Below are positions 38,738 through 58,276 of a DNA stretch of 64,000 bases, piece after piece. Both the position numbers and the translations under genes were made by a program. The notes beneath the pieces were generated by a model that saw nothing but the letters and a program-made list of their open reading frames with translations, did no database searches and was not told where the DNA came from. Origin of the DNA: Streptomyces sp. SAI-127 (GTDB lineage: Bacteria > Actinomycetota > Actinomycetes > Streptomycetales > Streptomycetaceae); NCBI RefSeq assembly GCF_029894425.1, contig NZ_JARXYJ010000001.1, positions 2,666,001-2,730,000 on the forward strand, given 5' to 3'. Position 1 is the stretch's first letter. Each line of letters opens with the position of its first letter.

Positions 38738-38751
38738 ACACCCGGGAACCA

Positions 38752-38780
38752 TTGAATGATGTATTCAACGCTTCTAGCAT
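38752..38780 (+). promoter_or_regulatory. GH84 promoter with overlapping operator
   Basis: TTGAAT (38752-38757) serves as -35 and, with ATTCAA (38763-38768), forms a perfect inverted repeat. After a 17-base spacer the -10 TAGCAT is at 38775-38780, 6 bases before the GTG, so the message is leaderless. The repeat is preceded by GAACC, giving GAACCATTGAAT, related to sites elsewhere in the locus. A repressor bound here would cover the -35. Confidence 0.7.
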
Positions 38781-38786
38781 CCTCAG

Positions 38787-41700
38787 GTGGATTCATTCAT
38801 CAATCTCAGATGTGTGGCCGCCGCCCTGCTGCTGGCCCTGGGCCTCGCGGCACCGGCGGCCCCCGCCTCGGCCGAGCCCCGGCAGACGGTGCCGGAGGTA
38901 TGGCCGACCCCTCAGAAGATCACCGTCGGGCAGGGCCGACTCCCCGTTCCCGACCGGGTAGTCGAGGTCGTCGGTCCCGGTACCGATCCCTCGGCCCGAA
39001 AGGTCGTCGAGGCGGCCCTCAAGGCCGCCGGAGCCGACCACATCACGAAGGTCGACGCCGGCGACCGGCCGCCGCCGGCCGACCTGACCGTCTACGTCGG
39101 CGGCCCCGGGGAGAACAGCGCCACCGCCCGGACGCTGAAACGACTCGGCGCCGCCTCCCCGTCCGGTCTCGCCCCCGGCGGTTACGTCCTGGCCTCCGGC
39201 CGCAGCCACGGCCAGGCCCTCCTCGCCCTCTCCGGCGTCGACACCACCGGCACCTTCTACGCCGCCCAGACCCTGCGCCAACTCCTGGCCGGACAGCGCC
39301 AGTTGCCTGTGGTCACGGTCCGCGACTGGCCCACCGCCGCGCTCCGCGGAGTCATCGAGGGCTTCTACGGCACACCCTGGACGCACGCCGAGCGACTCGC
39401 CCAGCTCGACTTCTACGGCCGTACGAAGCAGAACGTCTACGTCTACTCCCCCAAGGACGACGACTACCTGCGCGCCCGCTGGCGGGACGAGTACCCGCCC
39501 GCGGCACTGGACCGGCTGAAGGAACTGGTCGACCGGGCCGACGCCGACCACGTCCGCTTCACCTACGCCCTCTCGCCCGGCCTGTCGGTCTGCTACTCCT
39601 CGGACTCCGACATCAAGGCACTCACCGCCAAGTTCGACTCGTTGTACGCCATCGGCGTCCGTTCCTTCGCGATACCGCTGGACGACATCAGCTACACCAA
39701 GTGGAACTGCCCCGAGGACGAGCAGGAGTTCGGCACGGGCGGCGGTGCGGCGGGTGCCGCGCAGGCGCATCTGCTGAACACCGTGTGGAAGCGGTTCTCC
39801 GCCGACCACACCGGCCTCCAGCCCCTGGAAATGGTTCCCACCGAGTACTCCGACCTCACCGACTCCCCGTACAAGAAGGCCCTCAGGGAGCAGCTCGATC
39901 CGTCCGTGGTCGTCGAGTGGACCGGCGTCGGCGTCATCGCGCCCACCATCACCACCGCGCAGGTGAAGCAGGCCCGCGAGGTCTACGGCCACCCGATCCT
40001 GGTCTGGGACAACTACCCGGTCAACGACTACGTCACCAGTCGGCTCCTCCTCGGCCCCTACACGGGCCGGGAACCCGGCGTGGCGAGCGCCGCCACCGGC
40101 GTGACGGCCAACCCGATGGTCCAGGGCGAGGCGAGCCGGATCGCGCTGTTCACCTCGGCCGCCTATCTGTGGAACCCGACCGCCTACGACCCGGGCAAGG
40201 CGTTCGACGCCTCGGTCCAGGACCTGGCAGGACCCCACGCCGCCACATGGCTGCGAATCTTCGCCGAGAACAACTACTCCTCCCAGCTCGACCCGACGGA
40301 GTCCCCCACCCTCACCCGGCTGATCGCCGCCTTCCGCAAGGCATACGAGCAGGACAGCGGACTCGACCGGGCGGCAGCCCGGCTGAAGGCCTACTTCGCC
40401 GACATGGCCGCCACTCCCGCCCAACTGCGCGCCCGGCTCGACAACCCCGGGTTCCTCGACGAGACCTCCGCCTGGCTCGACAAGCTCGGCCGCTACGGCG
40501 GCGCGGGCGGGACGGCCGTGGACCTGCTGCTGGCCCACAAGCGCGGTGACGCGGACGCCGTCTCCACGTACTGGAAGCAACTCCAGGAAGAGCGCAAGCA
40601 GTTGGACGCCATTCCGCAGCAGGTCTCACCGGGCGTGATGGACCAGTTCCTCTACACCACGATGCTGGAGAACGCCCCCGATCCCGGCGTGGACGCCTCC
40701 TTCACGCCCAGCTCCCTGTCGGTCGGGCCCGGAGCCTCCGCCACGGTCACCCTCGACTTCTCCGACGCGCAGGCCAGGACCGTGAGCTGGAAGCTCGACG
40801 TGCCCGACGGCGTCACGGCCTCGCCCTCCGAGGGCACGGCCACCACCCCGGGCGCCAAGGTCACCGTCACCCTCACCGGGAAGACCGAGGGCGTCCACTC
40901 CGTCGTCGTGTCGGGCACCGGCATCCTGGACCGCGCACTCCCGGTCCAGGTCACCGACGGCACCGGCACACCCCGCGCGCTGACCGCCGACTTCAGTGGC
41001 GCGTCGGTGAGTTCCATCGACCTGACCTCCGGCACGACCAGGAACATCGCCGTCGGCAACAACCCCGGCGAGGTCGTCGTGAGCGCGGACGGGCGTACCG
41101 CGTACGCCGCCAACCAGGGCTCCGACACGGTCAGCGTGATCGACGTGGCGAGCGGCACGGTCACCGCCACGGTCGCCGTCGGCAAGGTCCCCGCCGGACT
41201 CGCACTCACCCCGGACGGCGCCACACTCTGGGTCGCCAACTACACGGACGGCACAGTGCAGTCGATCGACACGGGCACCCTGAAGACCGGCACTCCGGTC
41301 CCGGTCGGCGACGGCCCCGAGAACATGGCGATCACGCCCGACGGCAGAACGCTGTACGTGGCCGACATCCACGACAACACGGTGAGCCCCGTCGACCTCG
41401 CCACCGGCAGGGCGGGCGCGGCGATCCCGGTCGGCCCCAGCCCCTTCAACGTCGTGGCGGCCCCGGACAGCAGGACGGTCTACGTCTCCAACTCCGGCGG
41501 CTCGACGGTGACTCCGATCGACACGACGACGAACGAGACCGAACCGACCTTCCTGGTCTCCGGCCAGGCGTACGGCCTCGCCCTCTCACCGGACGGCCGG
41601 ACCCTGTGGGTCAGTCCGAGCAACGGGGACACGATCACCCCGATCGACACGGTGACCGGCGCACCGGGCACCACGGTGAAGGTGGGCAAGTCGGCCTTCG

Positions 41701-41858
41701 ACGTGGCCCTGGACTGGAACGGCGGCACGGCCTACGTCACGACGGCGGACGGCAACTCCCTGGTGCCGGTGGACACCGCCACGAACACCGCCGGGTCACC
41801 GCTGACGACCGGCGCGTATCCGCTGGCCGTCGCCTTGACTCCGGTACCTGTCGACTGA
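38787..41858 (+). CDS. Secreted GH84 beta-N-acetylglucosaminidase with C-terminal beta-propeller
   Basis: 1023 residues. Signal peptide to about 29 (PAAPASAEP), a GH20b-like domain (about 35-180), then the GH84 catalytic domain with RGVIEGFYGTPWTHAERL and the catalytic pair D299-D300 in IPLDDISYTKW. A helical region follows, then an Ig-like NEW3-type domain (about 635-725), and roughly seven 42-residue YVTN-type propeller repeats (NNPGEVVVSADGRTAYAA and similar) fill the end. It should release GlcNAc from glycoproteins or glycans outside the cell by substrate-assisted catalysis. GTG at 38787 follows a leaderless promoter. First gene of the glycan locus. Confidence 0.9.
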   Translation: MDSFINLRCVAAALLLALGLAAPAAPASAEPRQTVPEVWPTPQKITVGQGRLPVPDRVVEVVGPGTDPSARKVVEAALKAAGADHITKVDAGDRPPPADLTVYVGGPGENSATARTLKRLGAASPSGLAPGGYVLASGRSHGQALLALSGVDTTGTFYAAQTLRQLLAGQRQLPVVTVRDWPTAALRGVIEGFYGTPWTHAERLAQLDFYGRTKQNVYVYSPKDDDYLRARWRDEYPPAALDRLKELVDRADADHVRFTYALSPGLSVCYSSDSDIKALTAKFDSLYAIGVRSFAIPLDDISYTKWNCPEDEQEFGTGGGAAGAAQAHLLNTVWKRFSADHTGLQPLEMVPTEYSDLTDSPYKKALREQLDPSVVVEWTGVGVIAPTITTAQVKQAREVYGHPILVWDNYPVNDYVTSRLLLGPYTGREPGVASAATGVTANPMVQGEASRIALFTSAAYLWNPTAYDPGKAFDASVQDLAGPHAATWLRIFAENNYSSQLDPTESPTLTRLIAAFRKAYEQDSGLDRAAARLKAYFADMAATPAQLRARLDNPGFLDETSAWLDKLGRYGGAGGTAVDLLLAHKRGDADAVSTYWKQLQEERKQLDAIPQQVSPGVMDQFLYTTMLENAPDPGVDASFTPSSLSVGPGASATVTLDFSDAQARTVSWKLDVPDGVTASPSEGTATTPGAKVTVTLTGKTEGVHSVVVSGTGILDRALPVQVTDGTGTPRALTADFSGASVSSIDLTSGTTRNIAVGNNPGEVVVSADGRTAYAANQGSDTVSVIDVASGTVTATVAVGKVPAGLALTPDGATLWVANYTDGTVQSIDTGTLKTGTPVPVGDGPENMAITPDGRTLYVADIHDNTVSPVDLATGRAGAAIPVGPSPFNVVAAPDSRTVYVSNSGGSTVTPIDTTTNETEPTFLVSGQAYGLALSPDGRTLWVSPSNGDTITPIDTVTGAPGTTVKVGKSAFDVALDWNGGTAYVTTADGNSLVPVDTATNTAGSPLTTGAYPLAVALTPVPVD

Positions 41859-41874
41859 GGGCAAGCTGAAAAAT

Positions 41875-41941
41875 GGGCGCGGGGCTGAGTCGAATCTGCG
41901 GCTACCGCCGCGCGGGCGCGACCAGCCCCCACCGGCCGCAA
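41875..41941 (+). repeat. Dispersed GC-rich element, long form
   Basis: Starts GGGCGCGGGGCTGAGTCGAA, has a central CTGCGGCTACCGCCGCG hairpin-forming part and ends GCGACCAGCCCCCACCGGCC. It matches the copy at 56661 nearly throughout. Both long copies fill the gap between convergent genes, here GH84 and the SIS gene, where the outer GGGGCT/AGCCCC pairing could act as a terminator. Confidence 0.82.
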
Positions 41942-41966
41942 GTTCCCCGCGATACCCCAGGCACCC

Positions 41967-42731
41967 CTAACTCGCCGTACGCCGAACCCGCCCCGCGTAC
42001 CGCTTCTCCAACTCCAGGTTGCCCTCGAACCCACCGGGCACGTTGGCCGAGACATACACCGGTGGCCGCTCGCCGGAGGCAAGCAGCAGCCCCGAAGCCT
42101 CCGCAACCGCCATCTGCACCAGCATCACCCCGGTCAGAGTGGACAGCGCCCCCACCGCCCCACCCCCCGGCAACGACAGCAACGCATCCCCGACGGGCGC
42201 CGCGTTGTCCAGCACCACATCCGCCAGGTCCACGAGCTTCTTCCCGCTCGCGTGCCCGGCCGGCACGGCCGCCGTGTGGGTGAGTGAGGTGATCGCGAGG
42301 ATCTTGTGCCCCTGGTGCCTGGCATGCAGCGCCATCTCCACGATGACGTTGTTGACGCCGGAGTTGGAGATGATGACGAACAGGTCCCGGGCGTGCGGCG
42401 CGGCCAGCTCGTAGAGACGGACGGCCACCCCCGGCTCACGTTCCAGCAGCGGGTCGTCGAGGACGCTCGGGTCGTCACCGCCGTAGAGGACGAGGTCGGA
42501 GATCTGGAGCCGGTTCGTGGGCACGAGCCCGCCCGCGCGGCCCGCGACCTCCAGGACCATCGCCTGGGAGTGACCGGTGCCGAAGGCGTGGATCACACCG
42601 TCGGCGCGGATGCAGTCGGCGATCAGCTCGGCGGCGCGGCGCACGTCCTCGCGGGCGGACTCGGTGACGTGACGGAGGACGTCCAGGCTCTGTTCGGCGA
42701 AGCCCTGGGCGCTGACTGACTCGACGGACAC
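41967..42731 (-). CDS. SIS-domain sugar-phosphate isomerase-like protein (UPF0309 type)
   Basis: 254 residues with one SIS domain: IHAFGTGHSQAMVLEVAGRAGG, DLFVIISNSGVNNVIVEMAL, GHKILAITSLTHT. The SIS fold binds phosphosugars; whether this one is catalytic (isomerase/etherase) or regulatory is not certain. GTG at 42731 is selected for its GGGGAG site 8 bases upstream; an in-frame start at 42815 would overlap the operator region. Divergent from the RpiR regulator gene with which it shares operators, so it probably handles a GlcNAc- or mannose-derived phosphosugar in the cytoplasm. Confidence 0.82.
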   Translation of the reverse strand: MSVESVSAQGFAEQSLDVLRHVTESAREDVRRAAELIADCIRADGVIHAFGTGHSQAMVLEVAGRAGGLVPTNRLQISDLVLYGGDDPSVLDDPLLEREPGVAVRLYELAAPHARDLFVIISNSGVNNVIVEMALHARHQGHKILAITSLTHTAAVPAGHASGKKLVDLADVVLDNAAPVGDALLSLPGGGAVGALSTLTGVMLVQMAVAEASGLLLASGERPPVYVSANVPGGFEGNLELEKRYAGRVRRTAS

Positions 42732-42752
42732 GCGACACTCCCCACTGATGGA

Positions 42753-42826
42753 TTGAACCACCATATAATCACCGATCGGTGAATCAATAAACCACAACGC
42801 GGTCCTGGTATTCAATCAGTGGTTCT
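42753..42826. promoter_or_regulatory. Operator cluster between the SIS and RpiR genes
   Basis: TTGAACCA (42753-42760), a perfect 14-bp palindrome TCACCGATCGGTGA (42769-42782), and ATTCAA...TGGTTC (42810-42825) lie in the 119-base divergent region. The RpiR -10 TACCTT (42839-42844) is 6 bases before its ATG, so its message is probably leaderless. On the minus strand TTGATT and TATGGT, 16 bases apart, may drive the SIS gene. Confidence 0.6.
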
Positions 42827-42850
42827 AAGGGTGGCTGATACCTTCTTTGC

Positions 42851-43735
42851 ATGCCTGCGACCGACGTCACCACCCTGATCCGCACCGAGCTGCCCCGGCT
42901 GGCCGGTTCCCTGCGGAAGGTCGGCGAGCTGATCCTGGAGGATCCGGCCGCCGTCACCCACTGCTCGGCCGCCGAGCTGGGCCGCCGCACCGGGACCTCG
43001 CAGGCCACGGTGACCCGGTTCTGCCGTGCCATCGGACTCGACTCCTATCAGCATCTGCTGATCGAACTGGCCCAGGAGCGCGGCCGCGGCGAGGTCTCCG
43101 ACTGGGGTTCGGCCGAGATCGGCCCCGACATCTCGCCGGACGACAGCCTTGAGCGGGTCGTCCAGGTGGTGGGCAGCGCGGACCTGCGCGCGATCCAGCA
43201 GACCATCGAGCGCATCGACCTCGATGCCCTGGAGCGCGCCGCCCAGGCCCTGGCGAAGGCCCGCCGCATCGACGTGTACGGCGTCGGCGGCAGTGGCGCG
43301 GTCGCCCAGGAGACCGAGACCCGGCTGTTCCGCATCGGCTGCCAGGTCCGCGGCTGGACCGAGGTGCACGGCGCGGCCACCTCCGCGGCCCTGCTCACCC
43401 CCGCCGACGTGGCCATAGGCATCTCCCACTCCGGCGCCACCCGCGAGACCCTCGAGCCCTTCGAGATGGCCAGGGAGCGGGGCGCGACCACCATCGCCAT
43501 CACCACCGACCCGCGCTCCCCGCTGGCCAGGGCCGCCGACATCCGGCTCATCTCCTCGACCTCCGAGACCAGCTTCCGCACCGGCAGCATCGGCGGCCGG
43601 CACTCCGTCCTGATGATCGTCGACTGCCTCTACGTCCGCGTCGGCCAGGTCGGCTACCAGCGGGCCAGCGCCTCCCTCGCGCTCACCGAGCACATCAGCC
43701 CGCAGCACACGGTGAAGGCTCGCCGTACGCGTTGA
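42851..43735 (+). CDS. RpiR/MurR-family transcriptional regulator
   Basis: 294 residues: N-terminal HTH_6 domain (HCSAAELGRRTGTSQATVTRFCRAIGL) and C-terminal SIS effector domain (IDVYGVGGSGAVAQE, VAIGISHSGATRETLEPFEMA). RpiR proteins sense phosphosugars, often amino-sugar phosphates. ATG at 42851 follows a -10 element directly. It is central and divergent within the glycan locus, and TGGTTC-core sites occur at its own promoter and at the promoters of the surrounding enzymes and transporter, so it is the likely pathway regulator, probably a repressor. Confidence 0.9.
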   Translation: MPATDVTTLIRTELPRLAGSLRKVGELILEDPAAVTHCSAAELGRRTGTSQATVTRFCRAIGLDSYQHLLIELAQERGRGEVSDWGSAEIGPDISPDDSLERVVQVVGSADLRAIQQTIERIDLDALERAAQALAKARRIDVYGVGGSGAVAQETETRLFRIGCQVRGWTEVHGAATSAALLTPADVAIGISHSGATRETLEPFEMARERGATTIAITTDPRSPLARAADIRLISSTSETSFRTGSIGGRHSVLMIVDCLYVRVGQVGYQRASASLALTEHISPQHTVKARRTR

Positions 43736-43756
43736 CCATGTCCGATCTTGCATGGA

Positions 43757-43796
43757 TGAACCACCGAGATAACTCAACAATGGTTGTTTGAATCAT
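43757..43796 (+). promoter_or_regulatory. Operator sites upstream of the GH38 gene
   Basis: TGAACCA (43757-43763), CAATGGTTG (43778-43786) and TTGAAT (43788-43793) recur here, 50-90 bases before the GH38 start. They match half-sites at the other promoters of this locus. A clear -10 was not identified. Confidence 0.55.
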
Positions 43797-43845
43797 CCTC
43801 TCAGTGCCAGGATGGGGCTCCCCCGAGTCATCTCGTAGGAGCCCC

Positions 43846-46800
43846 ATGCGTGTCACCGCTGTTGAGTCGACCGAGTTGTTCGTCGGTACACCCGAGCGGC
43901 CGCTCCAGGTGGTGGCCGTCGCCATCGAGCACCTTCCGGGTCGCTCGGTCCGCGTCACCGTCGAGGGACGCGGCACCGGAGAGACGGTCGTCACCGTCGG
44001 CGAGAACGGCACCGTGCGCGCCGAGATACCCGTGACCGGCGACGGCGGGCCCATCACGGTCACCGCGACCGACGGCGACGAGAGCGCGCACGACACCGGA
44101 GAGTTCACGGTCGCCGAGCCCGGCTGGACCATGTTCATGGTCAGCCACTTCCACTACGACCCCGTCTGGTGGAACACCCAGGGCGCCTACACCGAGACCT
44201 GGGACGTCGCCGACGCCCCGGTCACCACCGGTCTCCCGGCCCGCACCTTCGACTCGCGCGGCCAGTCCGGGATGAGCCTGGTCCGCGCCCACTGCGACCT
44301 GGCCCGGCGCGACCCGGCGTACACCTTCGTGCTGGCCGAGGTCGACTACCTCAAGCCGTACTGGGACTCCTTCCCGGAGGAGCGCGGCTTCCTGCGCGAG
44401 CTGATCCGCACCGGCCGCGTCGAGATCATGGGCGGCACCTACAACGAGCCGAACACCAATCTCACCGGCGCCGAGGCGACCGTACGCAATGCGCTGTACG
44501 GCGACGGATACCAGCGCGCGATCCTCGGGGCGTCCCCGGAGACGGCCTGGCAGCTGGACGCGTTCGGGCACGACCCGCAGTTCCCCGGGCTGATGGCCGA
44601 CGCCGGGGTGACGTCCAGCTCCTGGGCGCGCGGTCCCTTCCACCAGTGGGGCCCCACCCTGTCCGTCTTCGGCGAGGAGCCGCGGGACCCGACGCGGATG
44701 CAGTTCCCGGCGGAGTTCGACTGGATCGCACCCTCGGGGCGCGGGCTCCTCACCGCGTACATGGTCAACCACTACGGCGCCGGCTGGCGGATCGACAACG
44801 CGCCGACGCTGCCCGAAGCGGAGGCGGAGGCGTTCAAGCTCTTCCAGGGGCTCAAGAAGGTCGCGCTCACACGCAACGTGCTGCTCCCGGTCGGCGGCGA
44901 CTACGCGCCGCCGTGCCGCTGGGTGATGGACATCCACCGGAGCTGGAACGCCCGTTACGTCTGGCCCCGGTTCATCAGTGCCGTCCCCCGGGACTTCTTC
45001 GCCGCCGTGCGCGCGGAGCTGGACGCCGAGGGCCGCAGGGCCTCGCCGCAGACCCGGGACATGAACCCGGTCTACACCGGCAAGGACGTCTCCTACATCG
45101 ACACCAAGCAGGCCCAGCGTTACGGCGAGACGCTCCTCGCCGACGCGGAGGCCTGGGCGACCCTCGCCTCCCTCGTCACCGGGCACGCCTATCCGGACGC
45201 GGCCCTCGACAAGGCCTGGCGGCAACTCGTCTACGGCGCCCACCACGACGCCATCACCGGCTCGGAGTCGGACCAGGTGTACATCGATCTCCTCACCGGC
45301 TGGCGGGAGTTGGCCGACCTAGCCGAGACCGTGCACGCGGATGCCACCAAGGCGCTGGCCGACCGGGTCGAGCCGGGCACCGGCCCGGACCTGGTGGTCT
45401 TCAACCCGACGACCTGGGAACGACAGGACGTGCTGACCGTCGACGACCCGGGCCTGGTGCCCGTCGGCGACGACTTCCAGCCGCTGCCGGCCGTGCGCGA
45501 GCAGGACGGCACCCTGCGGGTCGTCGTCCCGCAGGTGCCCGGCATGGGCCTCAAGACCCTGCCCCTGGCGGCCGGTTCCCTCCCCGGATGGACCTCCGGC
45601 GAGGGGACCACCATTCGCAACGAGTTCTACGAGGTGACGGTCGACGCGGCTCGCGGCGGTGCCGTGAGCAGCCTGCGGGCGGTGACCGAGGGCGGCCGGG
45701 AGCTGCTGCCCGCCGGGGAGATCGGCAACGAACTCGTCGTCCAGGAGGAGTTCCCGAGACACCCGCGCTTCGGCGAGGGCCCCTGGCACCTCACCCCGAC
45801 CGGCACGACCGCCGCGCGCGGCCGTGACGTGACCGCCGACATCGAAGTCGCTCACTCCCCGGCCGGCTCCCGGATCACCGTCCGTGCCGACCTCGGCCTC
45901 TTCAAGTACACCCAGCGGCTCACCCTTTGGGCGGGCGTCGACCGTCTCGACGTCTCCACGACGATCGACGGCTACGACGGCGCCGACCGCCTGATCCGGG
46001 TCCGCTGGCCCTCCGACGTGCGGGGCGGGCTGCCCGTGCACGAGGTCGCCGACGCGGTGATCGGGCGCGGCTTCGGCTTCGTGGAGGTGGACAGCGAGCA
46101 GTTCCCGTGGACGCTGGACAACCCGGCCAACACCTGGTTCGGACTCGGTTCCACGGCCCGGGTCCTCCTGCACGACGACTCCGGTGCGCCGCTCGGCAGG
46201 CGGGCCATCGGCGTCGCGGAGCTGGTGTACGCCGACTGGGACGAGGCCGGTGAGCTGGGCGCCCCGCTCGCGGCGGCCCTCGTCCGCGCGGGCGTCACCG
46301 CCACCTCGACCATCGCGGGCGGCCCCCGCTACGGAGACCTGGAGGTGGACTCCAACCTCCCCGACATCCGGATCGCCGTCGGCGGCCCGGAGCGCAACTC
46401 GCTGGTCGCCGAGGCGCTCGCCATGGACCCGGCCGCCGACCGCGAGCTGCGCCGCCAGGTCGCCGAGCGGGGCGTGGCGTCCGTGTGGGTCGCACCGCGC
46501 GCCTCGCTGCGCGAGGAGTGGGTGCCGGGCGCCGACCTGCGCGACCTGGAACGCCTGCCCCTGCTCGTGATCGCGGGCTCGGACCCCTCGGGTGACGCCA
46601 AGGCGGTCGACGCGCTGATCGCCGACCTGGAGGACTTCACCGTCACGGCCACGGCGCCGGGCGGTGGCGAGGCCCTGCCGCCGGGCGACGCCTGGGACGG
46701 GCGCGGCTTCGCCGTCCTGAACCGCGGCACACCGGGCTGTGTGGTCACCTCCTCCGGAGACCTCTACATGTCCCTGATGCGCTCCTGCACCGGCTGGCCG

Positions 46801-48731: not shown

Positions 48732-48761
48732 TCTCGCACGGAACCTAAACGCAACACGGGA

Positions 48762-48831
48762 AACCATTGACCTCCGATGAATTCTGGTCCACCTTTTCAT
48801 CAATCGGAGTCGGAGTTGGTTCATTGAACCA
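48762..48831 (+). promoter_or_regulatory. Promoter-operator region of the sugar ABC transporter
   Basis: TGGTTCATTGAACCA (48817-48831) is a perfect 15-bp palindrome, the best full operator in the locus. AACCATTGA (48762-48770) repeats the half-site at 38748. CTCCGAT (48772-48778) and ATCGGAG (48803-48809) form another inverted repeat. The palindrome lies 18 bases before the ATG, where a bound repressor would block initiation. Confidence 0.65.
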
Positions 48832-48849
48832 GCCGTGGAGGGGCATCAC

Positions 48850-50223: not shown

Positions 50224-51245
50224 TGGCGGCGACGCACACCACGAACCCGGTGTCCGTGCCCGGTGCGGAGGCCAAGGTCTCCGCACCGGGCCCGGCCCCG
50301 TCCCGCGCCCGCCGACTCGCCAGGGCCGTACTGCCGGGGCCCGCCCCCGGCGCCAACGGGGCGGCCATGTACCGCCGTTGGTGGCTGCCGTGGCTGTGGA
50401 CCGCGCCCGCGATCGCCTGCGCGGTGATCTTCGGCGTGTTCCCGTTCCTCAACACCATGCTGCTGTCGTTCACCAACGCCAAGCCGCTGGGCGGCGCGTA
50501 CCGTTTCGTCGGGCTCGACAACTACACGCGGATGCTGGACGACTCGGACTTCTGGCTGGCGACCCGCAACAGCGTCCTGTACGCGCTGATCGTCGTACCG
50601 CTGATGGTGCTGCTGCCACTGCTGCTCGCCGTGCTGGTGGAGAAGAACCTGCCGGGCATCGGCTTCTTCCGGTCCGCCTTCTACACACCGGTGCTGGCCT
50701 CCAGCGTGGTCGTCGGTCTGAGCTGGCAGTGGCTGCTGGCCGACGACGGACTGGTCAACACCTGGCTGCAGAAGGCCCACTTGATCAGGTCGGCCGTCCC
50801 GTTCCTGTCGGACTCCTGGCTGATCCTGCTGTCCGCGATGGGCCTGACCCTGTGGAAGGGCCTCGGCTGGTACATGGTCTTCTACCTGGCCGCCCTCGGG
50901 AACGTCCCCAAAGAGCTCCACGAGGCCGCCGCCATGGACGGCGCCGGAGCGGCCCGCCGCTTCTGGCACATCACCGTGCCCGGCGTACGGCAGGCCATGA
51001 TGCTCGTCGGCACCCTCACCGGCATCGGATCGCTCAGGGTCTTCACCGAGATCTACATGCTCGGCAGCGCCACCGGCGGCCCCGGCGGCGCCGACCGCAC
51101 CCTGCCCTTCTACATCCGGGACGTCGGCCTGGACCCGATCACCGGCAACGCGGGGTACGGCTCGGCCGTCAGCGTGGCCCTGTTCCTGCTGACGCTGGGA
51201 CTGACCCTGCTGGCGCAGCGCCTGACGAAGGAGGACGAGGCATGA
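50223..51245 (+). CDS. Sugar ABC transporter permease (MalF type)
   Basis: 340 residues: a Pro/Ala-rich cytoplasmic N-terminus of about 50, then six membrane helices. The EAA motif is ELHEAAAMDGAGAARRFWHITVPG. Its ATG shares one base with the stop of the binding-protein gene (TGATG), so translation is coupled. It pairs with the next gene's product as the inner-membrane channel of the importer. Confidence 0.9.
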   Translation: MAATHTTNPVSVPGAEAKVSAPGPAPSRARRLARAVLPGPAPGANGAAMYRRWWLPWLWTAPAIACAVIFGVFPFLNTMLLSFTNAKPLGGAYRFVGLDNYTRMLDDSDFWLATRNSVLYALIVVPLMVLLPLLLAVLVEKNLPGIGFFRSAFYTPVLASSVVVGLSWQWLLADDGLVNTWLQKAHLIRSAVPFLSDSWLILLSAMGLTLWKGLGWYMVFYLAALGNVPKELHEAAAMDGAGAARRFWHITVPGVRQAMMLVGTLTGIGSLRVFTEIYMLGSATGGPGGADRTLPFYIRDVGLDPITGNAGYGSAVSVALFLLTLGLTLLAQRLTKEDEA

Positions 51246-52123
51246 CGACCGCTGTCGCACCCAAGCGCCGCCGCCTGATGCCGCGTTGGCGGGACTACGG
51301 CCGCCCCCGCGAACTCGTCGTCCGCTATCTGCTGCTCCTCCTGGTCCTCGGCCTCACCGTCGGCCCGCTTCTCTGGCAGCTCCTCGCCTCCCTGAAGAGC
51401 ACCGGCGAGGACGTCTTCGGCGCGAACGCCACCCTGCTGCCCCACCACCCGACCCTGCGGGCCTACCGGACCATCTTCGACCAGGTGCCGGTGGGCACGT
51501 ACATCAGGAACAGCCTGATCGTGGTCGCCCTGTCGGTCACCAGCCAGCTGGTCTTCTCCACCACCGCCGGCTACATGCTCTCCAAGCCCGGCTGGAAGGG
51601 CCGCAAGGCGGTCTGGGTGGTTCTGATCGCCTCGATGATGTTCCCCTTCGAGTCGATCATGGTGTCGCTGTTCCTGAGCATCCGGGACATGGGCCTGGTC
51701 GACCACCTGGCCGGCGTGTGGCTGCCCGGGTTCGTCGGCGCCATCAACGTCCTCCTCATGCGCGGCGCGTTCCTCGCGGTCCCGCGCGAGATCGAGGACT
51801 CGGCCATGCTCGACGGCGCGAACGAGTGGCAGCGCTTCCGGCACCTGTATCTGCCGTCCGCGTGGGGCGCGATCCTGGTGGTCGTCATCAACACCTTCAT
51901 CAGCGCCTGGGACGACTTCCTGTGGCCGCTGATCGTGTTGCGCTCCGAGAGCAACATGACGCTGACGCTGGGACTTTCCCGCCTGCAGAACTCGTCGTTC
52001 GGCTACGACCAGCGGATGGTCATGGCCGGCTCGGTGATCTCCGTGATCCCGGTGCTGGTGCTGTTCGTGATCACCCAGCGGTGGTTCTACAAGGGTGTCT
52101 CGTCAGGGGCCGTCAAGCTGTGA
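51242..52123 (+). CDS. Sugar ABC transporter permease (MalG type)
   Basis: 293 residues with six membrane helices and EAA motif EIEDSAMLDGANEWQRFRHLYLPS; ends WFYKGVSSGAVKL as typical MalG proteins do. ATG at 51242 overlaps the previous stop (ATGA). The last 37 bases overlap the end of the convergent GH3 gene, leaving no room for a terminator between them. Confidence 0.9.
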   Translation: MTTAVAPKRRRLMPRWRDYGRPRELVVRYLLLLLVLGLTVGPLLWQLLASLKSTGEDVFGANATLLPHHPTLRAYRTIFDQVPVGTYIRNSLIVVALSVTSQLVFSTTAGYMLSKPGWKGRKAVWVVLIASMMFPFESIMVSLFLSIRDMGLVDHLAGVWLPGFVGAINVLLMRGAFLAVPREIEDSAMLDGANEWQRFRHLYLPSAWGAILVVVINTFISAWDDFLWPLIVLRSESNMTLTLGLSRLQNSSFGYDQRMVMAGSVISVIPVLVLFVITQRWFYKGVSSGAVKL

Positions 52124-54315
52124 CCCCGCGCGGCGAGCGCCTCCCCGGCTGAGGCGGCGACCCTGATCTCGACCGTCCTGGAAGGGGCGAGCTGCTCGGG
52201 GTCCAGGGTCAGCGAGACCGTACGGCGCTCACCCGGAGCCAGGCCGACACCCTCGAACGCGCACAGTTCGAGGGTGCGCGGCCAGGTGGGGGTGAGCAGG
52301 CGCCGCAGATAGACCTGGACGACCGAACGCCCGTACCGCTGACCGGTGTTGGTGACATCGACCTCGACCGTGAGGCCCGTGAGCCGTGGCGTGCCGTACG
52401 CGAAACTCGTGTACGACAGCCCGTGCCCGAAGGAGTACCGCGGCTGCGTGCTCTCGTCCACGTATCCGCCGTACTCGGTGTCCTTGTGGTTGTAGTGAAC
52501 GGGGAGTTGGGCCGCCGAGCGCGGAACTGAGACGGGCAGTCGGCCCGCCGGCTCCGTGAGCCCCAGCAGTACCCCGGCGATCGCCTCACCGCCCCACGGG
52601 CCCGGATACCAGGCGGTGAGCAGCGCGGCGGCGGTGTCGGGGACGAGGTGCGGGCGGCCCTGGATCAGGACGACCGCCGTGGGCGTGCCGGTCGCGACGA
52701 CGGCGTCCAGGAGCGCGTACTGGGCCGTGCCGAGCCGCAGTCCGGCCAGGTCGACGCCCTCGCCGCAGGTCATCTCGGACACGGTTTTGCGCGCGGCCCC
52801 GTTGGCGTCGAACTCCGTCTCGGGGGTACGGGCGCTGCTGCCGCCCAGCACCAGGACGGCCAGGTCGGACGCGGCGGCCTGGGCGATGGCCTCGGGGATC
52901 CCGGAGAGGTCGGCGCCGGTGAGGGCGCAGCCGGGGGCGTGGCGGATCTCCAGGCCGGGCGGGGCGAGGCGGCGCAGGGCGTCGAGGACGCTGCTGCCGG
53001 TGCCGGGACGCTGCGGGGCGGTGTAGTCGCCCAACTGGTGTGCGGTGGTGGCGGCCTGGGGTCCGAGGACGGCGATCCGTGAGACGTTCGCGCCGATCGG
53101 CAACGCGCCGTCGTTGCGCAGGAGGGTGACGGCCGCCCGGGCGGCCTCCCTGCTGATCGCCTCACCGTCGGCCGGCGGGCGGGCCGTCGCGTCCTGCTGG
53201 TCGAAGAGGCCCAGCCTGAACTTGAGCCGCAGCACGCGGGCGACGGCGGTGTCGAGGGTCTGCTCGCTCACCAGACCACGCTCGACGGCTTCCTCCAGAT
53301 GGGTGAAGCCCTCGTCCCAGAGGCTCAGATCCACACCGGAGTCGAGGGCGAGAGCACCCGCGGAGACCTTGTCCCCCGTGATCCGGGCCAGCCGGTCGAC
53401 GGCCAGGCCGTCCGCCATGACGAGCCCGTCGAAGCCCCAGTCCTCGCGCAACAGCCCGGTGAGCAGGGCGCGGTTGCCGGAGCAGGGCATCCCGTCGACC
53501 TCGTTGTACGCGGCCATGACGGCGGCGGCGCCCGCGCGGACACCGGCCCGGGCGGCGGGGAGGTGGATCTCGTGGAGTTCGCGCAGGCCGAGTTCGGACT
53601 CGGCGGAGTTGCGGCCGCCGACGGTGGCACCCTGGCCGGCGAAGTGCTTGAGGACGACAGGAGCCTTGTCGGCGGCGAAGACGTCGTCGCCCGGGACCCC
53701 CTGCATTCCCCGGACCAGCGCCTCCGTCAGCCGGGCGGCCAGGTACGGGTCCTCGCCGAAGCACTCCTCCGTACGGCCCCAGCGCGGGTCGCGGACGATG
53801 TCCAGCGCCGAGACGAGGGCCACGTGGCCGCCGCGGGCACGGAGTTCGGCGGCGGCGTGCGCGGCGGCGCGCTCGTGGAGGTCGGGGTCCCAGGTGGCGC
53901 CGATCGCCAGGTTGACCGGGAGGACCGTGCCGTCGAGGGCCATGAGGCCGTGCGGGACCTCCTCGACGAAGAGTGCGGGGATGCCGAGCCGGCTCCGGCC
54001 CATGACATGCCGCTGGACCAGTTCGGCGAGGGCGGCTCCGTCCTGCGCGCCGGGTCCGCTCCCGTGCTCCACGCCGGACCAGGCGTCGGCGCGCTGGAGG
54101 CCGTACAGGGCACCGAGTCCCTCGAAACGGTCGGTCTCGGCGTGCAGGGCCTCGGTGAGTTCGAACCCGCCGTCGGAGGTGCGGCGGTAGGCGTCCCAGC
54201 CGTACATGCGCTGGTTGAGCTGGCCGGCCTTCTCGCGCAGGGTCATCCGGGACAACAGGTCGCGGACGCGGGCGGCCACGGGTGCGGTGGGGTCGCGGTA
54301 GAGGACATCGCTCAT
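52087..54315 (-). CDS. GH3 beta-glycosidase (three-domain, cytoplasmic)
   Basis: 742 residues with the full GH3 layout: TIM barrel containing RDPRWGRTEECFGEDP, KHF at 223-225 and nucleophile D302 in GLVMADGLA; an alpha/beta sandwich; and a fibronectin-III-like end (DVTNTGQRYGRSVVQVYL). Substrates of this class are beta-glucosides, xylosides or related; here, beside GlcNAc and mannose genes, specificity is open. No signal peptide. ATG at 54315 overlaps the stop of the kinase gene upstream (ATGA), giving a kinase-glycosidase operon. Confidence 0.9.
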   Translation of the reverse strand: MSDVLYRDPTAPVAARVRDLLSRMTLREKAGQLNQRMYGWDAYRRTSDGGFELTEALHAETDRFEGLGALYGLQRADAWSGVEHGSGPGAQDGAALAELVQRHVMGRSRLGIPALFVEEVPHGLMALDGTVLPVNLAIGATWDPDLHERAAAHAAAELRARGGHVALVSALDIVRDPRWGRTEECFGEDPYLAARLTEALVRGMQGVPGDDVFAADKAPVVLKHFAGQGATVGGRNSAESELGLRELHEIHLPAARAGVRAGAAAVMAAYNEVDGMPCSGNRALLTGLLREDWGFDGLVMADGLAVDRLARITGDKVSAGALALDSGVDLSLWDEGFTHLEEAVERGLVSEQTLDTAVARVLRLKFRLGLFDQQDATARPPADGEAISREAARAAVTLLRNDGALPIGANVSRIAVLGPQAATTAHQLGDYTAPQRPGTGSSVLDALRRLAPPGLEIRHAPGCALTGADLSGIPEAIAQAAASDLAVLVLGGSSARTPETEFDANGAARKTVSEMTCGEGVDLAGLRLGTAQYALLDAVVATGTPTAVVLIQGRPHLVPDTAAALLTAWYPGPWGGEAIAGVLLGLTEPAGRLPVSVPRSAAQLPVHYNHKDTEYGGYVDESTQPRYSFGHGLSYTSFAYGTPRLTGLTVEVDVTNTGQRYGRSVVQVYLRRLLTPTWPRTLELCAFEGVGLAPGERRTVSLTLDPEQLAPSRTVEIRVAASAGEALAARGHSLTAPDETPL

Positions 54316-55370
54316 GAGGGGTGCGCCAGCCGTGCGAGGGCGACCGCGCCGGGACAGCCGTCGGCCACCCAGTCGAGGCTCAGGCCGTGGCTGTGGAGCC
54401 GTTCGGCCAGCGGGGCCGTGAGCGGCCCCCGGGGACCGAGCAGGCCGCCGGTGGCGACGATCCGTTCGCCGGGGCGCGGTTCCAGCGCCCGTACGGTCTC
54501 CAGCAGGTGGTCCGCCGCCTCGCTCATGATCGTCTTGGCTACGGCGTCCTGCTCGGCGGCCGCGTCGGCGACCAGCGGGGCGAAGCGGGCCAGCCGGATC
54601 GGCGGATCGGCCATGACGGCGGGCAGCAGATGGCGGCGGAAGTCCTCACGCCGGGCGCGTGACCAGCCGGGGACGCCGGTGGGGTGGGCGCCGGTACCGC
54701 TCGGCAGGGCGGTGCCGCCTTGGTCGTAGGAAGGGATTCCGCCCTTCGGGAGGACGTCTACCGGCAGGCCGAGGGTGCGGCCGACCCAGCCGGCGAGGAC
54801 GGTCGGACGGCCGCGGCCGTCGGCCATGCGAAGGGCCGCGCGGACCGCGCTGCGGCCGATCCAGAAGCCGCTGCCCTCGTCGCCGAGGAGCCAGCCGTCG
54901 CCGTCCACCGTTGTCGTGGCGTGTCGGTCGGTGATGCGCATGGCGACCGCGCCCGTGCCCGCGACCAGGGCGAGGCCGTCGGAGGGGGTGCCGGGGGCTG
55001 CGGCGAAGGCGGCCTCGATGTCGCTGCAGACGCCGACCCGGCAGGCCGGGATGCCGAGGCGTCCCAGGGCCTCGGTGAGGGCCGTGCGGGCCCTGGAAGT
55101 GCCGGGGTCCTGCTCGGAGGCCGCCGTGGCGCCCGCGAAACCGCCGGTCACGGCCACGACCCGGGCACGCGCCCCCTCGGGCACCACTTGGGCCAGCGCC
55201 TCGGCGAGGTGGTCGATGAGCTGCGGGACCGGCACGGTCATGGCGTTGCCGGGGCCGCCGGTGCTCTCGCCCAGCACGCGACCGTCGTCGGCGGCGGCGA
55301 GGACCGCGCGGGTGCGGGTGCCCCCGGCGTCGAGGCCGACGACCAATTCTTGGTTCAAATCATTACCCAT
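54312..55370 (-). CDS. BadF/BcrA-type N-acetylglucosamine kinase
   Basis: 352 residues of the ASKHA kinase fold: LDAGGTRTRAVLAA (phosphate 1), VTGGFAGA, GLALVAGTGAVAMRI (phosphate 2), DGWLLGDEGSGFWIG, IVATGGLLGPRGPL (adenosine). The DEGSGFWIG segment is typical of GlcNAc kinases in this family. It would phosphorylate GlcNAc released in the cytoplasm, feeding amino-sugar catabolism and perhaps making the RpiR effector. ATG at 55370; the operator half-site TTGAACCA lies within its first codons. Operon with GH3. Confidence 0.85.
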   Translation of the reverse strand: MGNDLNQELVVGLDAGGTRTRAVLAAADDGRVLGESTGGPGNAMTVPVPQLIDHLAEALAQVVPEGARARVVAVTGGFAGATAASEQDPGTSRARTALTEALGRLGIPACRVGVCSDIEAAFAAAPGTPSDGLALVAGTGAVAMRITDRHATTTVDGDGWLLGDEGSGFWIGRSAVRAALRMADGRGRPTVLAGWVGRTLGLPVDVLPKGGIPSYDQGGTALPSGTGAHPTGVPGWSRARREDFRRHLLPAVMADPPIRLARFAPLVADAAAEQDAVAKTIMSEAADHLLETVRALEPRPGERIVATGGLLGPRGPLTAPLAERLHSHGLSLDWVADGCPGAVALARLAHPS

Positions 55371-55384
55371 CGACGACTATGGTG
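55345..55384. promoter_or_regulatory. Divergent operator region, kinase and GH5-like genes
   Basis: TTGGTTCAAATCATT begins at 55350 and carries the locus half-site TGGTTCA; it overlaps the first codons of the kinase gene. On the plus strand TTCAAA (55354-55359) and TATGGT (55378-55383), 18 bases apart, can serve as -35 and -10, predicting a start near 55390. Confidence 0.5.
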
Positions 55385-55385
55385 A

Positions 55386-56648
55386 TTGATACATTCGCGC
55401 AGGACAAGGCCCCGGCCCGAGGAGGATCCCATTCCCACGCTCCGCTTCGGCGTCAACTACACGCCCCGCCACGGCTGGTTCCACGCCTGGCACGACTTCG
55501 ATCCGGGCCGCGCCCGCGAGGACCTGGCCCACATAGCCGGGCTCGGCCTCGACCACGTCCGGGTCTTCCACCTCTGGCCGCTCCTGCAGCCCAACCGCAC
55601 GCTGATCCGCACCGCCGCCGTGGACCAGCTGACGCAGCTGGTCGACCTGGCGGCCGAGGCGGGCCTCGACGTCCTGGTGGACGGCGTGCAGGGCCATCTG
55701 TCGAGCTTCGACTTCTACCCGGAGTGGACCCGCAGCTGGCACCACCGCAACGTCTTCACCGACCCGGAGGCGATCGACGCCCAGGCGGACCTGCTCCGCA
55801 CCCTCGGCCGCGCCCTCGCCGGCCGCCCGAACCTCATCGGCCTCCAGCTGGGCAACGAGCTCAACAACCTCATCGAGCACAACCCGGCGACGGTGGCGGA
55901 GGTCGACCACTACCTGGACACCCTGCTGGCCGCCGCCCGGGACGGCCTGGGCTCCCAGGGCCTCGTCACCCACTCCGCGTACGACGCGGCCTGGTACGGC
56001 GACGACCACCCCTTCACCCCGGAGGCCTCGGCCCGCAAGGGCGACCTCACCACGGTCCACCCCTGGGTCTTCTCCGGCGGCTGCGCGAGCCTCTACGGCC
56101 CCCGCTCCCCCCAGGTCCTGCACCTCGCCGAATACGGCACGGAACTGGCCAAGGCCTACGCCGCGGACCCGTCCCGCCCGGTCTGGGTCCAGGAGACAGG
56201 CGCCCCCGAACCCCACATCCCGGCCGCCGACGCCCCGCACTTCGCCCGCGAGACGATCCTGAACGCGTCGGGTTGCGAGAACCTGTGGGGCGTGACGTGG
56301 TGGTGCTCCCACGACGTGGACCGCTCCCTGGCGGACTTCCCGGAGCTGGAGTACACGCTGGGGTTGTTCGACGCGGAGGGGCGCCCCAAGCCGATCGCTC
56401 AGGCGCTGGCGACGACGATCACCGAACTGCGGGCCGGATCACTGCCGGCTGAGCCACGCGACACGGCCCTGGTCCTGGCCTGCACACCGTCCACGCGATC
56501 GGTGTCGGGGCCGGGCGGGGCGTACTTCGAGGAGTGGATGCGCCTGCGCCAGCAGGGGTTGCGTCCGGCGGTGGTCCTGGCGGAACGGGCGGAGGACGCG
56601 GGCTATCTGGCGGCAAGAGGGGTCAAGGAGCTCATACACATTCCATGA
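55386..56648 (+). CDS. GH5-like glycoside hydrolase, candidate beta-mannosidase
   Basis: 420 residues from TTG 55386. TIM-barrel pattern of clan A: RFGVNYTPRHGWFH, acid/base E158 in LQLGNELNN, nucleophile E270 in VWVQETGAP, and WGVTWWCSHD. A C-terminal segment of about 60 residues follows. No signal peptide. Some bacterial GH5 enzymes of this size (subfamily 18) cleave Man-beta-1,4-GlcNAc, which would fit the locus; that is inference. The start is doubtful: a perfect GAGGAGG (55419-55425) stands 5 bases before ATT at 55431, immediately before PTLRFGVNYTP, whereas TTG 55386 has no ribosome site. Confidence 0.83.
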   Translation: MIHSRRTRPRPEEDPIPTLRFGVNYTPRHGWFHAWHDFDPGRAREDLAHIAGLGLDHVRVFHLWPLLQPNRTLIRTAAVDQLTQLVDLAAEAGLDVLVDGVQGHLSSFDFYPEWTRSWHHRNVFTDPEAIDAQADLLRTLGRALAGRPNLIGLQLGNELNNLIEHNPATVAEVDHYLDTLLAAARDGLGSQGLVTHSAYDAAWYGDDHPFTPEASARKGDLTTVHPWVFSGGCASLYGPRSPQVLHLAEYGTELAKAYAADPSRPVWVQETGAPEPHIPAADAPHFARETILNASGCENLWGVTWWCSHDVDRSLADFPELEYTLGLFDAEGRPKPIAQALATTITELRAGSLPAEPRDTALVLACTPSTRSVSGPGGAYFEEWMRLRQQGLRPAVVLAERAEDAGYLAARGVKELIHIP

Positions 56649-56653
56649 AGGTG

Positions 56654-56731
56654 AGCGCCTCGAAGGGGCGCGGGGCTGTATCGATATGCGGCTCCGCCGC
56701 GTGGGCGCGACAAGCCCCCACCGGCCCGCAG
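56654..56731 (+). repeat. Dispersed GC-rich element, long form
   Basis: GCGCCTCGAAGGGGCGC (56655-56671) is an imperfect hairpin, followed by GGGGCT, a central TGCGGCTCCGCCGCG and the end CAAGCCCCCACCGGCCCG. It nearly repeats the copy at 41875 and likewise fills the gap between two convergent genes, here the GH5-like and GH3 genes. Confidence 0.83.
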
Positions 56732-56736
56732 ACGAA

Positions 56737-58215
56737 TCACCGCGCTCCGACCAGCACTTCAGCCACCGCCCGCAGATTGACCCTCCCCCGCCCGTAAGAA
56801 CACAACGCATCCCCCTCCGGCAGCCCCGTGGCGACCCGTACCACCCCCGGCCGCCGGGCCTCGATCACCTCCCGCATGCGGGCCTGCCAGGGATGCAGGC
56901 CCGCATCGCACGTGGCCACGACCAGTGGCGCACCCCCGGCCTTGGCCAGGATTTCCTCGACCGCACCTTCCAGATCGGCGGGCTCCCCGTTGACCGCCGT
57001 CCCCGTGGCCGTCGGATCAACGGCCAGCACCGCGGTCAGCAGATCCTCCCCACCCCAGTTCAACGCCGGATGCGGCGCCGGAAACAGGTCCACGACATGC
57101 GCCCCGGACACGGGACCCGGCGAAACCTGCCCCCGCAGGGCCCGCCGAGCCGCCTCCAGCCCCGCCCCTTCGTCCCATACAGCGACTTCCGCGCCCGGCG
57201 TCGCATACCGCTCCGCCAGCCGCTGAACCCGCCCCGCGGCCTCCCGAACCCGTTCCTCGGCCAGCACCCCGTCCCGCAGCGCCTCGAGCACGGCGTCCCG
57301 GCACTCCAGAGTCACCCCCAGATCCGCCACGGCGACGATGACCTGGTCCGCTCCGGCGGCGAGGGCGATCCGCGCCCCCGCGGCCTCCCCGTACAGGTCC
57401 GCGATCGACTTCATCTCCAGTGCGTCACTGACCAGCACCCCGTCGAAGTCGAGCTCGTGCCGCAGCAGATCCCCCAGGATGCGCCGGCTGAGCGTGGCCG
57501 GCCGGTTGGGGTCCAGTGCCGGAAAGACGACGTGCGCACTCATCAGCATCGGCACACCCGCGGCTATCGCGGCCCGGAAGGGGCCGAGGTCGAGTTCCTC
57601 GTACGGCCGCGGGTCGACGGCGACTTCGTGGTGGCTGTCGGTGAGGGTGCCGCCGTGCCCGGGGAAGTGCTTGGCGCAGGAGGCGATGCCCCGCGCCTCG
57701 GTGGCCGCGATCCAGGCGCCCAGGTGCCGGGAGACCAGCTCTGGCTCGGTACCGAAGGCGCGCGTGCGCACGATCGGGTTGCCGGCCTGTCGCTGGATGT
57801 CGGCGACGGGTGCGTAGGAGGCGGTGATGCCCAGCGTGGCCAGATGTCCGGCGAGGGCGTCGGCGCAGCGGGCGGTGAGGTCCGGGTCGTCGACGACGCC
57901 GAGGGCGTAGGAGCCGGGGATCTCCGGGGCGCCCGCGGCGACCAGGTGCCCGATGCCGCCGCCCTCGTTGTCGATGGCGACCAGCAGGTCGGGCCTCAGC
58001 GCCCGCAGGGTGTCGGTGAGCCGGCGCACCTGTTCCGCGTCGCGCACGTTGCGGGTGAACAGGATGACTCCGCCGAGACCGCGGTCGATGAGCCGCTTCA
58101 GGGTGTCGGGGACGGCCGTGGTGCCCTCGAACCCGGCGACGAGACAGCGGTGTGCGGCCTCGTCGAGGTCGACGGGCAGGGCGGTGCGGGCAGGCTGGCG
58201 CTCGGTGTGGGTCAC
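56737..58215 (-). CDS. GH3 beta-N-acetylhexosaminidase (NagZ-like)
   Basis: 492 residues. NagZ features are clear: IDNEGGGIGHL, KHFPGHG at 182-188, the general acid/base H195 in TLTDSHHEV, and nucleophile D264 in LVSDALEMKS. The C-terminal ~150 residues add an alpha/beta domain found in larger members. It removes beta-linked GlcNAc in the cytoplasm, either from imported glycans or from muropeptides. GTG at 58215 is chosen because a -10-like TATGTT and an operator half-site lie just upstream; a longer frame to 58275 would contain them. Last gene of the glycan locus. Confidence 0.88.
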   Translation of the reverse strand: MTHTERQPARTALPVDLDEAAHRCLVAGFEGTTAVPDTLKRLIDRGLGGVILFTRNVRDAEQVRRLTDTLRALRPDLLVAIDNEGGGIGHLVAAGAPEIPGSYALGVVDDPDLTARCADALAGHLATLGITASYAPVADIQRQAGNPIVRTRAFGTEPELVSRHLGAWIAATEARGIASCAKHFPGHGGTLTDSHHEVAVDPRPYEELDLGPFRAAIAAGVPMLMSAHVVFPALDPNRPATLSRRILGDLLRHELDFDGVLVSDALEMKSIADLYGEAAGARIALAAGADQVIVAVADLGVTLECRDAVLEALRDGVLAEERVREAAGRVQRLAERYATPGAEVAVWDEGAGLEAARRALRGQVSPGPVSGAHVVDLFPAPHPALNWGGEDLLTAVLAVDPTATGTAVNGEPADLEGAVEEILAKAGGAPLVVATCDAGLHPWQARMREVIEARRPGVVRVATGLPEGDALCSYGRGRVNLRAVAEVLVGAR

Positions 58216-58251
58216 CCCCGGAATCTTCTGGCTCGTCCAGCCGAAAGTCAA

Positions 58252-58276
58252 CATACCAATGGTTCGGTCATTCATC
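58252..58276 (-). promoter_or_regulatory. Operator/promoter upstream of the NagZ-like gene
   Basis: On the + strand CAATGGTTCGGTCATTC carries the locus half-site (CAATGGTTC) plus ATTC. On the minus strand TATGTT just inside it can serve as -10, putting the start point about 35-40 bases before GTG 58215. Confidence 0.5.

Follow-up and report, generated by a model that had tools for sequence, protein, structure and literature searches.

The stretch analyzed here, 64 kb of a 10.7-Mb Streptomyces genome (G000:C1:2666001-2730000, referred to as the window), contains a cluster of genes for glycosidases, an ABC transporter, a BadF-type sugar kinase and a sugar isomerase-domain (SIS) protein, together with a gene for an RpiR-family regulator (Table 1). 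GH38, GH5_18 and ABC transporter genes, the combination expected of an N-glycan core degradation locus, are all present as judged by sequence, and from its gene content the locus looks like an N-glycan-type utilization cluster. The regulator contains an N-terminal HTH_6 domain (PF01418, 45.5 bits, cut-off 28.3) and an SIS domain (PF01380, 78.3 bits, cut-off 25), the domain composition of the RpiR (MurR/RpiR) family. As looked for in RpiR-family systems, a palindromic operator lies at the promoters of the linked sugar genes, in six regions: before the SIS gene (A), the GH38 gene (B), the transporter binding-protein gene (C) and the GH84 gene (D), between the kinase and GH5 genes (E), and before the last GH3 gene (F). 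The element is strong in A, B, C and E and modest in D and F. These promoters probably share a 15-bp operator that is read by the locus-encoded RpiR protein, most likely as a repressor released by a sugar phosphate.

The element shared by these regions is the 15-bp palindrome TGRTKNAWTNAAYCA. The original prediction had placed a common operator with a TGGTTC core at the promoters of the glycan locus, and the half-site strings that it quoted are present where it located them. The hexamer was rejected as the core motif: it is common in coding DNA and unspecific, occurring 34 times in the window versus 16.3 expected, with 26 of the 34 copies outside the intergenic regions listed in that prediction. 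The longer conserved unit was read by eye in orthologous promoters, on a quarter of the loci, and a palindromic matrix was trained solely on the orthologous B2 and C2 sites (153 sites, 16 distinct 15-mers). In a scan of the window with this matrix, ranks 1 and 2 are held by 48817 and 43781, which correspond to the training sites, and 42746, 42780, 55351, 43749, 38788, 42749 and 58260 follow at ranks 3-9. Position 42749 is an overlapping register of 42746, and 43749 shares the intergenic region of B2 yet is not a training site. The idea of an operator common to these promoters is thereby retained, since the matrix finds untrained sites at the top of the window, with the palindrome in place of the TGGTTC core.

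Enrichment depends on the form of the motif. The string TGGTTCNNNGAACCA is at chance level in the window when up to three mismatches are allowed (19 matches versus 15.0, a count reached by 22 of 100 shuffles), whereas eight window positions have a matrix score of at least 12, versus 0.69 on average, and never more than 3, in 100 simulated windows. In the whole genome, TGGTTCNNNGAACCA has 161 matches at up to two mismatches versus 100 for the reversed control, and its single place without mismatch is 48817. TGRTKNAWTNAAYCA with at most one mismatch is found at seven places in the genome, four of them in the window; the counts for the reversed control are 2 on one strand and 3 on the other. Among 2000 composition-matched simulations, the fraction reaching the best score of a region is 0.0005 for A, 0 for B, 0 for C, 0.003 for E, 0.018 for D and 0.0145 for F, the values for B and C not being independent of matrix training because these regions are training-type. 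Regions D and F are individually modest, as 1-2% of the simulations reach their best scores.

Conservation was followed in syntenic loci fetched with the GH38 protein as the query, the best 80 of 382 places encoding a relative being mapped; the titles name Streptomyces for 79 of the 80 and an Actinobacteria bacterium for one. As fetched, with some loci shortened by contig ends, RpiR is present in 80, SIS in 78, the binding protein in 77, the kinase in 67, GH5 in 64 and GH84 in 34. These loci contain 353 matrix sites scoring at least 15 (training-type sites included), of which 344 lie in promoter intervals. The best site of a region scores at least 15 in 78 of 78 loci for A, 80 of 80 for B, 76 of 77 for C, 37 of 64 for E and 4 of 32 for D, and at least 10 in 64 of 64 for E and 25 of 32 for D. 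In GH38-coding stretches, a control that is not composition-matched, none of 399 reaches 15 and one reaches 10. The last GH3 promoter has a site of at least 9 in five of the nine relatives scored. In the GH84 promoter, where a half-site had been noted at 38746, the conserved core is TTGAATG (30 of 32 orthologous promoters), and TTGAAT followed by TA after a 17-bp gap is likewise kept in 30 of 32; D2 covers codons, so its conservation is confounded. A further half-site listed at 42820 was rejected as an operator, being kept in one of the 80 loci (strict expression). The same list had missed the site at 42780 and the pairing of the sites.

At several promoters the sites are paired. In the window, partners stand 34 bp apart in A, 32 bp in B and E, and 35 or 31 bp in D; the partners in C and F are weak. 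Counting the best pair per region with both sites scoring at least 5, the spacing is 34 bp in 63 of 78 loci for A, 32 bp in 68 of 80 for B, 32 bp in 59 of 64 for E and 35 bp in 15 of 32 for D. Coding controls gave no such pair in 80. When the bar is lowered to 0 in region C, 29 bp wins in 47 of 77 loci and 32 bp in 18. The candidate C1 was rejected as weak (score 1.3), and the alternative partner of C2 at -29 scores 2.3. Region C thus has no clean pair, and C and F look single. A spacing of 32 bp corresponds to about three helical turns, placing both sites on approximately the same face of the helix.

The motif follows a particular RpiR lineage. Among 293 genomes of the order surveyed, 35 have an RpiR protein at least 80% identical to that of the locus. 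The motif in its strict form (no mismatch) is present in 27 of these 35 versus 10 of the 258 genomes without this RpiR, nine sister-lineage genomes being included in the latter group (Fisher 5.6e-23, on genomes of shared ancestry). Among the strict-motif places listed for RpiR-bearing genomes, three are off the locus (G030:C5, G200:C188 and G170:C1:4736977). In seven of the ten genomes without this RpiR, none of the 3-kb loci around the strict-motif places (L128, L135, L136, L143 and L150-L152) matched a locus gene. In L136, the place lies between open reading frames (ORFs) resembling citrate synthases, as judged by eye.

A sister RpiR, 62-66% identical, occurs in nine genomes in another gene neighborhood, with a kinase gene in nine of nine and an SIS gene in eight of nine; no GH38 gene was found near it in the nine fetched stretches, of which L089 and L096 are shorter. 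All nine of these loci have a site scoring at least 16.2 between the kinase gene and rpiR, and in six of the eight with an SIS gene, that gene is preceded by a pair spaced at exactly 32 bp. More distant relatives differ. No site of at least 9 was found directly before rpiR in nine loci with a 41-46% identical RpiR, nor in nine with a 37-41% identical paralogue (61 bases were available in L110), the nearest being a site of 12.4 about 325 bp upstream in L111. Six class-level loci with a 46-47% identical RpiR, in which SIS and kinase genes are kept, likewise lack the motif before rpiR. No position in them scores above 12.5, a value that comes from within the SIS gene of L163, and the site scoring 9.3 between kinase and rpiR in L166 is a different kind of palindrome.

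The presence of the motif correlates with the recognition helix of the regulator. This helix reads TGTSQATVTRFC in the locus RpiR and SQATVTRFC in the aligned motif-bearing groups (SQASVTRFC in L091). In the 41-46% group it is varied, for example SAATVMRFC, SPATVLRFC and SETTVIRFC; it is SEATVVRTA in eight of nine paralogues and begins SPATV or SAATV in the class-level group. This correlation is the strongest argument for RpiR as the reader. The original prediction had named the local RpiR as the natural ligand of the sites, and this predicted binding gains support because the motif follows both the RpiR lineage and the recognition helix across genomes and into another neighborhood.

In the mechanism proposed, TGRTKNAWTNAAYCA would be bound by the N-terminal helix-turn-helix (HTH) of RpiR, perhaps as two dimers of one tetramer, at operator copies standing about three turns apart in B, E, A and, at about 35 bp, D. 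Bound RpiR would most likely repress the GH84, SIS, GH38, transporter, kinase and GH5 genes; repression may also extend to the last GH3 gene. Glycan breakdown products phosphorylated in the cell would yield a sugar phosphate, perhaps an N-acetylhexosamine (HexNAc) 6-phosphate, that would bind the SIS domain and release repression. Repression is the most likely mode because the sites lie over or beside apparent -35, -10 or start regions. Judged visually, B2 and D1 run into -35-like letters; the SIS promoter is flanked by A2 and A1 and the kinase and GH5 promoters by E1 and E2, and C2 follows the likely transcription start. The GH84 promoter, also read by eye, would comprise a likely -35 TTGAAT (38752-38757), a 17-bp spacer and a -10 TAGCAT (38775-38780).

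The same layout bears on the possibility that RpiR, bound at these sites, acts as an activator in its sugar phosphate-bound form. Such a mode is proposed for pneumococcal NanR, an RpiR activator whose tetramer is reported to be stabilized by ligand (PMC12713135). GlaR is likewise an RpiR-family activator according to the title of its report, and the core promoter is preceded by B1 and possibly by F. The strongest sites, however, overlap or follow apparent core promoter elements (by eye), and the NanR preprint describes earlier-reported RpiR regulators as repressors (PMC12713135), a statement contradicted by the GlaR title. Activation by RpiR at this locus is on balance unlikely.

For repression released by a sugar phosphate, the ligand leans, weakly, toward a phosphorylated amino sugar rather than a mannose phosphate, because the BadF-type kinase and the SIS protein stay with the regulator where GH38 is gone. 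The lean is weak because the best solved match of the kinase is a hexokinase (2e2n, E 8.1e-21), followed by a MurNAc/GlcNAc kinase (8zo3, E 7.3e-14) and a GlcNAc kinase (2ch5, E 2.1e-11). The spacing of the pairs suits one RpiR tetramer bridging two sites. RpiR crystal structures are described as tetramers with the phosphosugar at the tetramer interface (PMC12713135). A bolder and rather doubtful proposal is that the pairs are built for one RpiR tetramer clamping both sites, that a change of tetramer state caused by the sugar phosphate is what switches the locus, since RpiR ligands sit at the tetramer interface, and that the spacing, shared by two loci of different gene content, records this oligomerization switch. 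No description of an oligomerization-switch operator spacing for a repressor of the RpiR family was found in the open-licence literature searched.

It is improbable that rpiR is only a passenger of the locus and that the motif is recognized by a protein from elsewhere in the genome, for instance DasR, a ROK protein or a further SIS-domain regulator. The dre core of DasR is TGGTCTAGACCA; within two mismatches, none occurs in the operator regions, and the five in the window all lie elsewhere. Membership of the DasR regulon, judged by this core at the promoters, was therefore rejected. In Streptomyces, DasR is reported to govern the uptake and metabolism of GlcNAc, and glucosamine toxicity to be affected by a ROK gene (PMC12680351); in addition, one strong off-locus site adjoins another SIS-domain gene. 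Against such a regulator, the strict motif is rare in related genomes without this RpiR and moves with the sister RpiR into its other neighborhood, and it is missing before rpiR in the six class-level loci, which keep the SIS and kinase genes and have another recognition helix. Ordinary promoter or coding conservation in related Streptomyces, with promoter likeness arising by chance in AT-richer intergenic DNA, can be set aside as highly improbable: D2 and E1 do overlap start codons and the scores of D and F are within reach of simulation, but a matrix built from two sites picks out others in unrelated promoters, composition-matched sequence almost never equals the best scores of A, B, C and E, and the 32-bp pairing recurs in another gene neighborhood.

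Several observations weigh against the RpiR repressor proposed here. The genomes behind the Fisher test are, by their shared ancestry, not independent, and the strict motif is missing in 8 of the 35 RpiR-bearing genomes; in three of these eight, a scan gave sites of 22.1 (G006, L160), 15.2 (G116, L097) and 15.2 (G138, L098). Four of the sites (D1, E2, F and C1) are weak, and another two, D2 and E1, extend over start codons. At spacings of 34-35 bp, the two sites depart from a common helix face by roughly one-quarter to one-third of a turn. A consensus scan found no sigma-70-type promoter in the region, the promoter positions being those read by eye, and RpiR activators exist (NanR, PMC12713135; GlaR by title). 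An off-locus site at C1:9130144-9130158 (L183:4145-4159), TGATTGATAGCACCA, scores 19.1; it precedes the gene of another ABC binding protein and adjoins another SIS-domain gene, and a DeoR-type regulator gene follows about 3 kb beyond. This site may mark an additional target, or it may be the operator that serves a relative, and because of its place before the one gene and beside the other, the regulon or its reader may extend beyond the locus. The one-mismatch places off the locus number three in this genome; those in L085 and L087 score 17.4 and 17.6, and neither showed a match to locus genes.

Table 1. Genes and operator sites of the locus, in window coordinates (operator scores are matrix scores)
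Feature	Position	Strand	Remarks
GH84-type β-N-acetylglucosaminidase, C-terminal β-propeller	38787..41858	+	PF07555 E 2.6e-113
SIS_2 sugar isomerase-domain protein	41967..42731	-	PF13580 E 9.3e-41; ORF open to 42815, likely GTG start 42731
RpiR-family regulator (HTH_6 + SIS), proposed operator reader	42851..43735	+	PF01418 E 7.4e-12; PF01380 E 5.9e-22
GH38 α-mannosidase	43846..48060	+	PF01074 E 3.8e-45
ABC transporter solute-binding protein	48850..50223	+	PF01547 E 4.5e-26; nearest solved 6wpm
ABC transporter permease	50223..51245	+	PF00528 E 2.5e-11
Second ABC transporter permease	51560..52099	+	PF00528 E 2.5e-15; domain extent, reading frame 50378-52123
GH3 family glycosidase	52087..54315	-	PF00933 and PF01915
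BadF-type sugar kinase	54312..55370	-	PF01869 E 9.2e-20
GH5_18-type β-mannosidase	55386..56648	+	ScGH5_18 7lr7 E 5.6e-136 (closest among solved proteins); start uncertain
GH3 (NagZ-like) β-N-acetylhexosaminidase	56737..58275	-	PF00933 E 6.1e-64; true start probably inside ORF
Operator D1 TGAATGATGTATTCA	38753..38767	.	score just 8.2; overlaps likely -35 of GH84 gene
Candidate operator D2 TGGATTCATTCATCA	38788..38802	.	score 12.2, not training site; 35 bp from D1; overlaps presumed GH84 start
Operator A1 TGATGGATTGAACCA	42746..42760	.	score 20.7, not training site
Operator A2 TGAATCAATAAACCA	42780..42794	.	score 20.0, not training site; 34 bp from A1
Operator B1 TGCATGGATGAACCA	43749..43763	.	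score 13.1, not training site; 32 bp from B2
Operator B2 TGGTTGTTTGAATCA	43781..43795	.	score 22.1, training-type; overlaps likely GH38 -35
Doubtful candidate C1 TGGTCCACCTTTTCA	48785..48799	.	score 1.3; 32 bp from C2
Operator C2, perfect palindrome TGGTTCATTGAACCA	48817..48831	.	training-type; upstream of binding-protein gene
Operator E1 TGGTTCAAATCATTA	55351..55365	.	score 16.5, not training site; overlaps kinase start codons
Operator E2 TGATTGATACATTCG	55383..55397	.	score 8.4; 32 bp from E1; between kinase and GH5 genes
Candidate operator F TGGTTCGGTCATTCA	58260..58274	.	score 10.4, not training site; upstream of last GH3 promoter

The SIS_2 protein has distant matches to 3cvj (131.2 bits) and to NagS SCO4393 (9eol, 122.7 bits). 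Its assignment as NagS was rejected, the match to SCO4393 being a distant one; nagS is reported to adjoin dmdR1, and distant homologues of about 30% identity to lack NagS activity (PMC12680351). The NagZ-like GH3 protein scores 202.2 bits with NF003740, slightly below the cut-off of 207. Other sequence elements were also noted. Before the binding-protein promoter (window 48740-48781), the stretch GGAACCnAAAnGCAACA is kept in 50 of 77 loci and CCATTGACCTCCGAT in 67 of 77; neither fits the RpiR motif, and they are perhaps the site of a second regulator or part of the core promoter. Right before rpiR (window 42800-42850), 78 of 80 loci retain GGTGGCTGnTACnTTC; the start codon follows a few bases further on, and the sequence looks like the -10 element of a leaderless transcript. 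Two minus-strand copies of TGGTTC at 23807 and 23825, 18 bp apart and close to where the ORF 21666-23813 starts, are not top matrix sites. In class-level RpiR relatives (L169-L182), the regions between kinase and rpiR contain recurring GAAACT boxes, seen by eye, and in L172 one 15-bp palindrome, TTGTGAAACTCACAA; these are perhaps the operator of the relatives themselves. In L092:1532-12839, the one of the nine sister loci with neighbors typed by Pfam, the sister RpiR gene lies between pgi and tpi-pgk-gap with genes for an SIS protein, a PF00144 β-lactamase-type protein and a BadF kinase, a neighborhood that could point to the recycling of cell-wall sugars.

The arrangement as such, an RpiR protein with a local regulon and a palindromic operator, is of a kind already known. 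For Streptomyces N-glycan-type loci, a regulator, operator and regulon are predicted here, as seen in the 80 fetched loci; among the matches listed in the open-licence literature, none describes an RpiR regulon for Streptomyces N-glycan genes, this operator or its pairing, which is not proof of absence. The gene set is similar to that of N-glycan loci of Cutibacterium and other actinobacteria, in which GH38 and GH5_18 genes accompany transporter and regulator genes; in Cutibacterium, the GH38/GH5_18 pair is placed in a cytoplasmic N-glycan core pathway, with no operator for the regulator gene given in the available part of that report (PMC6160142).

Similar to RccR and HexR of Pseudomonas, the proposed reader is an RpiR protein, and the 15-bp geometry of its operator resembles that of RccR, which is reported to recognize the pseudo-palindrome TGTAGT-N3-ACTACA in core promoter regions, at aceE twice at a distance of 68 bp (PMC5489143). 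The Streptomyces system differs from that of RccR, whose ligand is KDPG, in the letters of the operator, in the gene set and in the 32-35-bp spacing of its pairs. MurR of Escherichia coli, the MurNAc-6-phosphate repressor, is likewise an RpiR protein with an SIS domain. The SIS domain of the locus RpiR aligns with MurR and other RpiR structures, 7en5 being among its closest solved relatives, and the SIS, PF00144 and BadF kinase set of L092 recalls the murQ-yfeW neighborhood. Unlike that of MurR, the window locus contains GH38, GH5_18 and GH84 genes. The lineages in which the recognition helix is changed and the motif is missing although partner genes are kept provide a natural test of RpiR DNA recognition. 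In NanR of Streptococcus pneumoniae, the ligand N-acetylmannosamine-6-phosphate is located at the tetramer interface, and NanR is proposed to span an 18-bp site together with a degenerate half-site that lies 23 bp downstream of it (PMC12713135). NanR is an activator with one full site and a half-site, whereas two 15-bp sites are paired here, an arrangement that makes the role of tetramers in RpiR regulators directly testable.

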